Source of the DNA: Tsuneonella troitsensis | GTDB taxonomy: Bacteria > Pseudomonadota > Alphaproteobacteria > Sphingomonadales > Sphingomonadaceae | DNA: 64,000 nt | NCBI RefSeq assembly: GCF_001441535.1 | Contig: NZ_LMAU01000001.1 | Span: 62,001-126,000 of the forward strand | Reading direction: 5' to 3' | In this document: positions 45,935 to 47,827 of the stretch, in pieces | How the letters are laid out: the number at the start of each line of letters is the position of its first letter | Numbering within the stretch: the stretch's first letter is position 1 | Made by a program: the position numbers and the translations under genes | Notes under the pieces: model-generated | What the model saw: only the letters and a program-made list of their open reading frames with translations | Told to the model about the DNA's origin: nothing | Databases searched by the model: none

Positions 45935-46576
45935 ATGGTCCTTTCGGTCAATCGAGAGGGCATAGGACACGTGTTCAAGGCCGATCTGATCGAGCGAGCC
46001 GCGCAATTCCGCCGCGCAGAGGACGATCCCTCGCGCAAGCTGGAAAGCTGCCCCGCGCTCGTCCTCAACGCCGACTACACTCCGCTGTCGTATTACCCGC
46101 TGAGCCTGTGGCCGTGGCAGACCGCGATCAAGGCGGTATTCCTGGAACGGGTGGACATCGTCGCCAGCTACGAACGCTGCGTGCATTCGCCCAACCTCGA
46201 CATGCAGATCCCCAGCGTGATCGCGCTGCGGCAATACGTTCGCCCAAGCGAGTTTCCCGCCTTCACCCGCTTCAACCTGTTCCTGCGCGACCGGTTTGCC
46301 TGCCAGTACTGCGGCAGCGAGAAGGACCTGACCTTCGACCACGTGATCCCCCGCCGCCTCGGCGGCCGGACGACGTGGGAGAACATCGCCACCGCCTGCG
46401 CGCCCTGCAACATGAAGAAGGGCGGCCGCACTCCGCAGCAGGCTCACATGAACCTCGTCCGCCCGATCCGCCCGACGAGCTGGCAGCTCCACCAGCACGG
46501 CAAGGCCTTCCCGCCGGGGTACCTGCACGAGACGTGGCGGGATTGGCTGTATTGGGAGATCGAGCTGGAGGCTTAG
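45935..46576 (+). CDS. HNH endonuclease family protein
   Basis: A protein of 213 residues. An N-terminal domain carries LNADYTPLSYYPLSLWPWQTAIKAVFLERVDIV. The HNH domain (about 120-165) has FACQYCGSEKDLTFDHVIPRRLGGRTTWENIATACAPCN, with two CxxC pairs holding zinc and the catalytic DH. The family is widespread and single-copy in alphaproteobacteria, where its role is not established. The GTG at 45971 with AGGA upstream is a good alternative start. The gene ends 17 bp before the first palindromic repeat of the GIY-YIG unit. Confidence 0.85.
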   Translation: MVLSVNREGIGHVFKADLIERAAQFRRAEDDPSRKLESCPALVLNADYTPLSYYPLSLWPWQTAIKAVFLERVDIVASYERCVHSPNLDMQIPSVIALRQYVRPSEFPAFTRFNLFLRDRFACQYCGSEKDLTFDHVIPRRLGGRTTWENIATACAPCNMKKGGRTPQQAHMNLVRPIRPTSWQLHQHGKAFPPGYLHETWRDWLYWEIELEA

Positions 46577-46593: not shown

Positions 46594-46622
46594 CTTGATT
46601 CCCGCATGCGCGGGAATGACGA
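46594..46622 (+). repeat. Palindromic repeat copy A (REP-like), same orientation as copy C
   Basis: 29 bp with an 8-bp stem, ATTCCCGC (46598-46605) pairing with GCGGGAAT (46610-46617), and loop ATGC. It is an inverted copy of B, 26 of 29 positions identical. Two of the three differences are a compensatory C:G to T:A change within the stem. Copies A and B face each other across 14 bp. Confidence 0.85.
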
Positions 46623-46636
46623 GTCGCACCATACAT

Positions 46637-46665
46637 TCGTCATCCCCGCGCATGCGGGGATCCAG
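46637..46665 (-). repeat. Palindromic repeat copy B, just upstream of the GIY-YIG gene
   Basis: 29 bp with stem ATCCCCGC (46642-46649) and GCGGGGAT (46654-46661), loop GCAT. It is inverted relative to A and C and matches C at 27 of 29 positions. It ends 20 bp before the GIY-YIG start codon. Confidence 0.88.
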
Positions 46666-46685
46666 CGACCGAAAGATTCGTGCGA

Positions 46686-46997
46686 ATGCACCCAGATTTC
46701 CAGCCTACCGTGTACTTAATGGCCTCCGCCCGAAATGGCACGCTTTACATCGGCGTGACTTCAAACCTGCTCCAGCGGGTCGCCCAGCATCGCGAAGGCA
46801 CCTTCGGCGGCTTCACGACCAAGTACGCTGTGAAATGCCTCGTCTGGTTCGAACAGCACAGCACGATGGAGCACGCGATCGTGCGCGAAAAGCAGCTCAA
46901 GAAATGGAACCGGGCGTGGAAGCTCGACCTGATCAAGAAGGCTAACCCTGAGTGGCGCGACCTCGCGGAGGATTTCGGATTCGAACCGTTGCGCTGA
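46686..46997 (+). CDS. GIY-YIG nuclease family protein
   Basis: A protein of 103 residues, a lone GIY-YIG domain of the short UPF0213/YhbQ-like group. The motif is spread as VYLMASARNGTLYIGVTSNLLQRVAQHREG, with catalytic Arg in LLQRV and a likely Glu in TMEHAIVREKQLKKWNRAWK. An in-frame GTG lies 6 bp upstream. The gene is bounded by inverted 29-bp palindromes: copy B ends 20 bp before the ATG and copy C begins at the base after the TGA. Function in bacteria is not settled; the setting suggests a small mobile or palindrome-processing unit. Confidence 0.9.
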   Translation: MHPDFQPTVYLMASARNGTLYIGVTSNLLQRVAQHREGTFGGFTTKYAVKCLVWFEQHSTMEHAIVREKQLKKWNRAWKLDLIKKANPEWRDLAEDFGFEPLR

Positions 46998-47026
46998 CTG
47001 GATCCCCGCGTTCGCGGGGATGACGA
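46998..47026 (+). repeat. Palindromic repeat copy C, abutting the GIY-YIG stop codon
   Basis: 29 bp with stem ATCCCCGC (47002-47009) and GCGGGGAT (47014-47021), loop GTTC. It is an inverted copy of B (27/29). It also lies 9 bp beyond the end of the convergent kynA and could serve as a bidirectional transcription stop, though no U-run follows. Confidence 0.88.
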
Positions 47027-47035
47027 GATGGGGCG

Positions 47036-47827
47036 CTAGATGGCCGTCCGAACGCTCAGCAGTTCGGGAAAAAACGCCTGCTTCAGCACGCCTTCGAGGT
47101 AAGGCACCCCCGCGGTCCCGCCGGTGCCGCGCTTGAAGCCGATGATGCGTTCGACCGTCTTCAGGTGACCGAAGCGCCAGCGCTGGAAGTGGTATTCGAG
47201 GTCGACCAGCTTTTCGGCCAGTTCGTAGAGGTCCCAGTGCGCTTCGGGGTCGCGGTAAATCTGGGCCCAAGCGGCCTCGACCGCCAGCGACGGGGTCCAG
47301 CCGCCCGAATGATCGCGCTCCAGCAGCTCCGCCGGAATTGCGAACCCGCGCCGCGCGAGCAGGCGCACTGCCTCGTCATACAGGCTCGGGCGGGCGAGTT
47401 CGGCGCGAAGCTCCGCCGCCACCTCTGGTGTCGCCTCGTGCATCGTCACCATCTTGGGATTGCGCCCGCCCATCAGGAATTCCATCATCCGGTACTGCGG
47501 ACTCTGGAAACCGCTGGAGTTCGCGAGGTGCGGGCGGACCTGCGAGTAATCGGCCGGGGTCATCGTGCTCAGCACTTCCCACGAGGAGATCAGCTGACCC
47601 TGTGCCCGCGCGACGCGGGCGAGCATCTTGAATGCGGGCCGCAGATCGTCGGCGACGATCTCGTCGCGCGCGGCCTTGAGTTCATGGAGGCAGAGCTTGA
47701 GCCACAGCTCGCTCGCCTGGTGAACGATGATGAACAGCATCTCGTCATGCGCGCCCGAGGTCGGGTGCTGCGCCGACAGGATTTTGTCGAGATCGAGATA
47801 CGAGGAATAGGTGACGTCGCGGGCCAT
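47036..47827 (-). CDS. kynA: Tryptophan 2,3-dioxygenase
   Basis: A protein of 263 residues. The N-terminal SYLDLDKILSAQHPTSGAHDEMLFIIVHQASELWLK contains the substrate-side His and Tyr region. The block SSGFQSPQYRMMEFLMG and the C-terminal FGHLKTVERIIGFKRGTGGTAG, with the haem-ligand His (RFGHLK), are diagnostic. It opens the indole ring of tryptophan to N-formylkynurenine with haem and O2. No other kynurenine pathway genes are in the window. Confidence 0.96.
   Translation of the reverse strand: MARDVTYSSYLDLDKILSAQHPTSGAHDEMLFIIVHQASELWLKLCLHELKAARDEIVADDLRPAFKMLARVARAQGQLISSWEVLSTMTPADYSQVRPHLANSSGFQSPQYRMMEFLMGGRNPKMVTMHEATPEVAAELRAELARPSLYDEAVRLLARRGFAIPAELLERDHSGGWTPSLAVEAAWAQIYRDPEAHWDLYELAEKLVDLEYHFQRWRFGHLKTVERIIGFKRGTGGTAGVPYLEGVLKQAFFPELLSVRTAI

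Follow-up and report, generated by a model that had tools for sequence, protein, structure and literature searches.

Repetitive extragenic palindromes (REPs) of the CGTC kind were found in five phyla in a 2013 survey (Di Nocera 2013, PMC3733652), with Wolbachia, Rickettsia, Kosmotoga and Mesotoga among the hosts it names, and in which the CGTC-1 type is described by its CGTC tag, an 8-bp stem beginning with AT, a 4-nt loop and a CCA tail, and is equated with Neisseria dRS3 and Rickettsia RPE-6. The passages of that survey dealing with these repeats report no association with transposase genes and state that they 'apparently lack a dedicated transposase'; they place REPs mostly downstream of coding regions and name 'excinuclease ABC complex proteins' among the REP-decorated proteins. 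In the convention used there the terminal tag is the 'tail', two REPs with their tags inside form a TT pair and two with their tags outside an HH pair. The other system of reference is REP/RAYT (REPtron; TnpA-REP) with its REPINs, in which the enzyme is of the HUH/Y1 kind and the tag is GTAG. To our knowledge Y1 enzymes are the sole kind of REP transposase; GIY-YIG enzymes lie outside the transposase families known to us, and we know of no DNA transposition carried out by a GIY-YIG enzyme by itself. GIY-YIG homing endonucleases, of the I-TevI type, do exist.

The locus described here lies in a window of 64,000 nucleotides, the whole stretch of DNA that was analysed, and consists of a small nuclease gene with CGTC hairpins around it. 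Its features are as follows.

45935-46576, (+) strand: HNH gene, left neighbour of the unit
46594..46622, (-) strand: CGTC-1 REP copy A, the outer copy, with its tag facing copy B; 8-bp stem, 4-nt loop
46637..46665, (+) strand: CGTC-1 REP copy B, the unit's left end; CGTC tag outward, CCAG tail gene-ward
46637..47026, (+) strand: the whole REP(+)-GIY-YIG-REP(-) unit, 390 bp; HH arrangement, equal layout in relatives
46680..46997, (+) strand: small GIY-YIG nuclease gene; PF01541, conserved residues, model mean pLDDT 91.3
46998..47026, (-) strand: CGTC-1 REP copy C, the unit's right end; CGTC tag outward
47036-47827, (-) strand: kynA, right neighbour of the unit, transcribed toward the GIY-YIG gene

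The three 29-nt palindromes proposed in a sequence-only reading of this DNA are all present, with every position as given. B and C are inverted and identical at 27/29 positions, as it had claimed; B ends 20 bp before the ATG at 46686 (GTG 46680 is also a possible start), C begins at the base right after the TGA at 46995-46997, and the unit has inverted ends, around a gene whose enzyme is outside the known transposase families where a classical insertion sequence would have a transposase. The doublet that it saw in A and B has the 14-bp spacing it stated, but the name 'head-to-head' has to be given up: by the naming set out in the survey's passage on pairs (PMC3733652), A/B is a TT pair and B-gene-C an HH pair. 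The compensatory stem difference between A and B (T-A to C-G) is also there, together with one tail-base difference, the tail being CAA in copy A and CCA in copies B and C. Each of the three hairpins folds with an 8-bp stem and a 4-nt loop at -8.8 to -9.8 kcal/mol as single-stranded DNA (z -3.3 to -4.3). In the whole of the 2,902,267-bp home genome the pattern GTCATYCCCGCNNNNGCGGGRATC is matched perfectly at three places and no others, all of them at the GIY-YIG locus, and its reversed control at none; the hairpin set at this locus therefore exceeds chance. Set to a perfect stem, the REP detector gave 3 matches in the window and none in any of 10 Markov shuffles; a setting that tolerates one mismatch gave 20 matches over 20 shuffles of the window, or roughly one per 64 kb. 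The home genome holds its three perfect CGTC-1 copies at this one locus, with no dispersed CGTC-1 family, and at 2 places it matches another REP type, for which it has no cognate gene. Dispersed CGTC-1 palindromes are found in relatives, with 33 matches in genome G104 and 63 in G001.

In tag, 8-bp AT-first stem, 4-nt loop, CCA tail and a preponderance of HH dimers, the home hairpins and units fit the CGTC-1 REP family. They differ from it in that they flank a GIY-YIG gene, where the relevant passages of the survey have no mobility gene. The assignment to REPs made from sequence is thus upheld for the family, the type being CGTC-1 and not that of the GTAG REPs served by RAYT.

The gene encodes 105 aa from GTG 46680, or 103 aa from ATG 46686, and its product matches the GIY-YIG domain (PF01541) with an E value of 2e-15 and 57.3 bits against a cut-off of 22.6; apart from it, PF01541 is matched in the home genome only by a UvrC-like frame of 669 aa. 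Across 42 aligned sequences residues Y10, Y21, R31, H35 and E68 never change, and we take the Tyr, Tyr, Arg and Glu, with the invariant His, to be the catalytic set. An AlphaFold model made from the 42 sequences reached the mean pLDDT of 91.3 given above. By both sequence and Foldseek, the closest proteins of solved structure are those of UPF0213 (1zg2, 1ywl) and the UvrC nuclease domain (1yd6); a Foldseek search with the model had 1zg2 and 1yd6 as its best and 0 matches at E<=0.001. The protein is like the small GIY-YIG proteins (PF01541; UPF0213) and the N-terminal domain of UvrC in fold and in its conserved, catalytic-type residues. In contrast to the homing endonucleases, a length of 103-105 aa would leave little room for a DNA-binding tail. 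Among relatives at 70-98.5% identity, dN/dS had a median of 0.13 and was below 0.5 in every case (133 of 228 pairs were computable, with dS >0.1 and unsaturated), and a working protein has therefore been kept up, under what these ratios indicate to be strong purifying selection. The relatives are labelled 'GIY-YIG nuclease family protein', or 'excinuclease ABC subunit C' in 3/30 plasmid records among the matches listed. Because relatives are so annotated, some of the 'excinuclease ABC' proteins named as REP-decorated in that passage of PMC3733652 may belong to this gene family.

Relatives of the protein (E<=1e-5) occur in 87/119 family genomes and the exact palindrome in 61/119. In a first set, made up of the best locus from each of the 30 best of these 87 genomes, a CGTC-type REP lies within 200 bp of the gene in 30/30 loci with a widened detector, and within 135 bp in 21/30 with the stricter first detector; the widening followed inspection of the nine loci that had been missed and was fixed before 80 named loci were fetched. 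These 80, the best of at least 579 relatives in the genome collection, make up a second set, in which a REP is found within 200 bp at 67/80 loci and on both sides at 44 (an alternative detector, left out of the counts, gave 58/80). By record title the second set covers alpha-, beta-, gamma- and delta-proteobacteria, Planctomycetota, Bacteroidetes, Ignavibacteria, Bipolaricaulota, Anaerolineae and Neisseria gonorrhoeae, many entries being metagenome bins; the Anaerolineae locus, with just 141 bp on one side, has no REP. Around the 80 genes REP density is 9.5-12.9/kb within 50 bp of the gene vs 0.07-0.18/kb at 1-10 kb. A sequence-blind test, scoring the best inverted repeat between two 200-bp flanks, gave a score of at least 14 at 44/75 genes vs 0/375 random positions in the same loci (5/80 loci were dropped for short flanks). 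Forty lower-scoring paralogs from eleven genomes, taken from the matches listed, were added, and an extra REP type, GTCATTGCGAG...GCAATC, was defined after inspection of 13 negatives and is counted in a total of 137/150. Once contigs present twice were dropped (L101=L027, L190=L141), a CGTC-type REP was found within 210 bp at 135/148 distinct loci, with REPs on both sides at 101/148 and no recognised REP at 13/148; the 80-locus counts and the sequence-blind, permutation, target-duplication and flank tests were computed before those duplicates were removed. The nearest REP pair is +/- (CGTC outward) in 66/101 distinct two-sided units (68/103 before repeat removal), as are 57/104 of the neighbouring REP pairs with a gap of up to 160 bp at the 80 named loci. 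Between left and right REPs, stem changes are two-sided in 75 cases and one-sided in 25, and show signs of selection on hairpin pairing, with some bias in this ratio from a detector that tolerates one mismatch.

Several of the 13 REP-negative loci bear other palindromes, as judged by eye. A palindrome of the type CGTCATTGCGAGCG.AGCGAAGCAATCCAG, with longer forms, flanks GIY-YIG genes that have no simple CGTC REP (L102, L135, L137, L151 as a partial match, L168; L176, L189) and is probably a branched relative of the CGTC REP. At L181 (G087) and L187 (G050) the gene has palindromes without a CGTC tag and, by eye, lies just upstream of an apparent lpdA, one site in two genera. The N. gonorrhoeae gene (L112, 10001-10279) stands amid several dRS3-like REPs, about 200 bp either side, and has a 44-bp imperfect direct repeat on either side. 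At L243, L244 and L245 (Rhizobium, Shinella, Sinorhizobium meliloti) the CGTC REPs have longer stems, 9-10 bp by eye, and are CGTC-3-like. A Rhizobium plasmid gene is kept at one plasmid site in eight records (L242, from Rhizobium sp. K1/93, and seven related plasmids); the one copy inspected, L242, has no recognisable REPs and is possibly domesticated, and its candidacy as a plasmid empty site was dropped.

The pairing sets this family apart from UvrC and Y1 genes. CGTC REPs were found at 0/29 UvrC loci and, as these reach about 1.5 kb past the domain, 20 longer UvrC stretches were examined. The longest frame has a REP within 200 bp, on either side, in 0/20 of them (17/20 have at least 200 bp past the frame end, and in 3/20 the longest frame is not clearly uvrC); one lone REP match lay elsewhere in them. 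An association with UvrC, or with GIY-YIG genes generally, is rejected on these counts, and REPs nearby are what sets the present family apart from UvrC. Y1 transposases (PF01797) have 0 matches in the home genome and are present in 18/119 family genomes. No CGTC REP lies within 300 bp of any of 20 Y1-transposase loci (one chance-like hairpin without a tail is 334 bp off), and Y1 presence bears no relation to REP number (p=0.32), so that RAYT is rejected as the driver at this locus and in the family. What the home system shares with REP/RAYT and its REPINs is a nuclease gene between palindromes of a kind that relatives also carry elsewhere in the genome, in pairs; it differs from REP/RAYT in enzyme (GIY-YIG, not HUH/Y1) and tag (CGTC, not GTAG); because the Y1 enzyme and the GTAG tag were looked for and are absent, it is a counterpart of that system and not a member. 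The clustering of the palindrome with GIY-YIG genes, which the sequence-only reading had put up for checking, is borne out, since the perfect home copies lie only there and the 135/148 loci compare with 0/29 for UvrC and 0/20 for Y1; neither of the outcomes that would have spoken against it, palindrome copies spread independently of GIY-YIG genes or a gene without the repeats in all relatives, occurred.

Paralogs of one genome bear different REP types, and their left and right REPs are mostly alike, often down to the 3' tail. When REPs were permuted among the paralogs within genomes (40 loci), the observed protein-REP correlation, r=0.586, was above the permuted maximum of 0.379 (0/2000). Since flanking REPs travel with the gene, matching of this kind could by itself be linkage, and the dispersed copies provide a stronger test. 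Dispersed REPs of a given type, with unit copies subtracted, are commoner where units carry that type, with medians of 10 vs 1, 11 vs 0 and 14.5 vs 0 for three types (p=0.0018, 0.0006 and 0.0013; 34 genomes, represented by the units inspected in them and not by every paralog, with kinship ignored). REPs of the three types together, unit copies included, have a median of 10 in the 87 genomes with the gene vs 0 in the 32 without, kinship again being ignored. They still occur in 13/32 genomes without a detected gene, and G069 and G091 are REP-rich with no cognate unit among those inspected.

Solitary CGTC REP pairs in the four genomes inspected have tag-outward ends equal to those of the gene-bearing unit, and in G087 an extended tail, CCAGATAAG...CTTATCTGG, is common to REPIN and unit. 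The unit therefore resembles a REPIN with a gene in its spacer. The outer flanks of both are also alike: position -1 is a pyrimidine in 72/85 units and +1 a purine in 70/85, and for REPINs the left flank is a pyrimidine in 45/57 and the right a purine in 46/57. Complementarity of the outer flanks barely exceeds the highest shuffle in units (0.316 vs 0.312) and does not exceed the shuffles in REPINs. Duplicated units were found at unrelated sites within two genomes, three in G071 that are 95-96% identical over 443-489 bp and four in G111 that are 81-94% identical over 427-541 bp, with homology stopping 0 to about 140 bp outside the REPs; one G111 unit (L200) is decayed, with an early stop. The stretches common to the flanks of duplicated units (L173-L175 in G071, L196-L200 in G111) include AAGCGGACATT and GTCCGCAATGTCGG, and stretches like these are perhaps a second repeat that serves as target. 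At a G104 locus (L014, 1430-1900) the unit has on either side a 27-bp imperfect repeat of sequence found next to the neighbouring gene.

The clean empty site looked for between the HNH gene and kynA was seen only in part. All 10 other genus genomes searched have no copy of the unit along the kynA stretch, and HNH and kynA are near-adjacent, with a gap of about 0-30 bp, in 3 of the 10; the remainder have other DNA between the two genes or no whole HNH gene within the stretch. A base-exact empty site was found neither at kynA in these 10 genomes, nor at a G104 unit in two congeners, nor at two G104 REPINs, and at those sites there was no simple presence or absence of the element alone, bar the near-adjacent HNH-kynA cases. 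One congener that has no unit carries a pair of CGTC REPs close to the opposite side of kynA (L215 at 2320-2390, reverse-complemented). No consistent target-site duplication was seen in 57 REPINs and 96 units: for the REPINs 1 of 18 settings reached the shuffle maximum (3/57) and the others fell below it, and for the units flanking direct repeats scoring at least 10, not abutting the REPs, were found in 9/96 vs 7/379 shuffled pairs, the nine including one locus counted twice and two near-identical paralogs. With duplicated units and patchy presence on the one side and no base-exact empty site on the other, mobility is supported by copies and patchiness and not by an event caught in progress.

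The reading that we prefer, at a probability of roughly two in three, is that the 390-bp REP-GIY-YIG-REP unit is a small selfish, or recently selfish, element whose protein would be the dedicated nuclease of CGTC REPs and would allow REP pairs to be copied. The anatomy, the recurrence across phyla, the type matching, the duplicated units and the purifying selection are the observations on which it is built; binding, cutting, mobilisation and their route are what we infer from them. The protein would recognise its own REP type, probably where a CGTC-outward (HH) pair forms a hairpin or cruciform, and would cut at or near the hairpin base; the pair, whether it holds the gene or not, could then be copied to new places. 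In this scheme the pair that holds the gene would be autonomous and solitary CGTC pairs (REPINs) non-autonomous, a relation like that proposed for RAYT transposases and GTAG REPs. As a guess, a route by way of single strands or repair would go well with the lack of a consistent target duplication. The suggestion that a GIY-YIG enzyme fills the RAYT role has thus gained from the matching of dispersed types and from the unit copies within genomes, and keeps its conditional form as to cleavage and mobilisation.

Of the alternatives, the one that survives best, though we consider it unlikely, is that a homing-type selfish GIY-YIG gene landed in pre-existing REP pairs and that the REPs are spread by something else. 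The likeness of the unit to a REP pair with a gene in its spacer speaks for this, GIY-YIG homing endonucleases are known and share with the home gene a nuclease superfamily and a selfish-gene logic, and the 13/32 genomes with REPs and no detected gene fit it too. A homing endonuclease gene, however, lies in an intron or intein or splits its own target, and, with the REPs assumed to be that target, the home gene does neither: both REPs are whole, they stand on both sides at 101/148 distinct loci, and the gene is intergenic, with symmetric hairpin ends and no intron or intein. Dispersed REPs of a type accompany units of that type, and Y1 genes neither have CGTC REPs within 300 bp nor predict REP number. 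Somewhat less probable again is a domesticated guard: a nuclease of the host, kept beside REPs whose cruciforms it would trim or contain without moving the REPs. Such a guard would be expected to show the strong purifying selection seen here (median dN/dS 0.13) and to have a DNA-repair domain, that of UvrC, among its nearest solved relatives; it accords poorly with the patchy presence (87/119 genomes; absence at kynA in 10 other genus genomes), the multiple divergent copies per genome, the duplicated units and the decayed L200, and genomes with the gene have more REPs, not fewer. Hairpins that are mere transcription terminators or mRNA-stabilising ends, matching dispersed REPs by accident, are very improbable and as ordinary terminators are rejected, for although copy C directly follows the stop codon and the passage concerned in PMC3733652 has REPs mostly downstream of coding regions, there are REPs upstream too, these co-vary with the downstream copies and share their type, the nearest pair is +/- in 66/101 distinct two-sided units, and random positions in the same loci have no comparable repeat pair (0/375).

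The best reading of REP-nuclease-REP is thus as an autonomous partner of CGTC REPs, the GIY-YIG counterpart of REP/RAYT, with the association observed directly and cleavage and mobilisation proposed from it. No earlier report of a link between GIY-YIG and CGTC REPs was found in the open-access literature, where no paper among the matches listed joined GIY-YIG and REPs; one may be in print elsewhere. PMC6006769 cites the CGTC survey and is silent on CGTC REPs in its passages concerned, and the gene table in PMC9465073 has RayT and a GIY-YIG gene together as clade-specific, unlinked. A wider reading, which we would back about as readily as doubt, is that CGTC REPs, including Neisseria dRS3 and possibly the in-gene Rickettsia palindromic elements, are phylum-spanning mobile DNA run by a single-domain GIY-YIG nuclease. 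On this view the REP/REPIN way of life would have arisen twice, independently, and the co-evolution of enzyme and hairpin would have led to many specificities per genome.

In the relevant passages of the 2013 survey the spread of CGTC REPs is left without an enzyme; the GIY-YIG protein is a candidate for it, and the question can now be tested directly. The genomes offer many natural REP-protein pairs, several per genome. If the preferred reading is true, the family of GIY-YIG proteins of ~100 aa would have a role, in the spreading of REPs, in the cutting of hairpins of known sequence, or in both, and the paralogs would form a ready-made specificity panel, provided that every protein reads the hairpin belonging to it.
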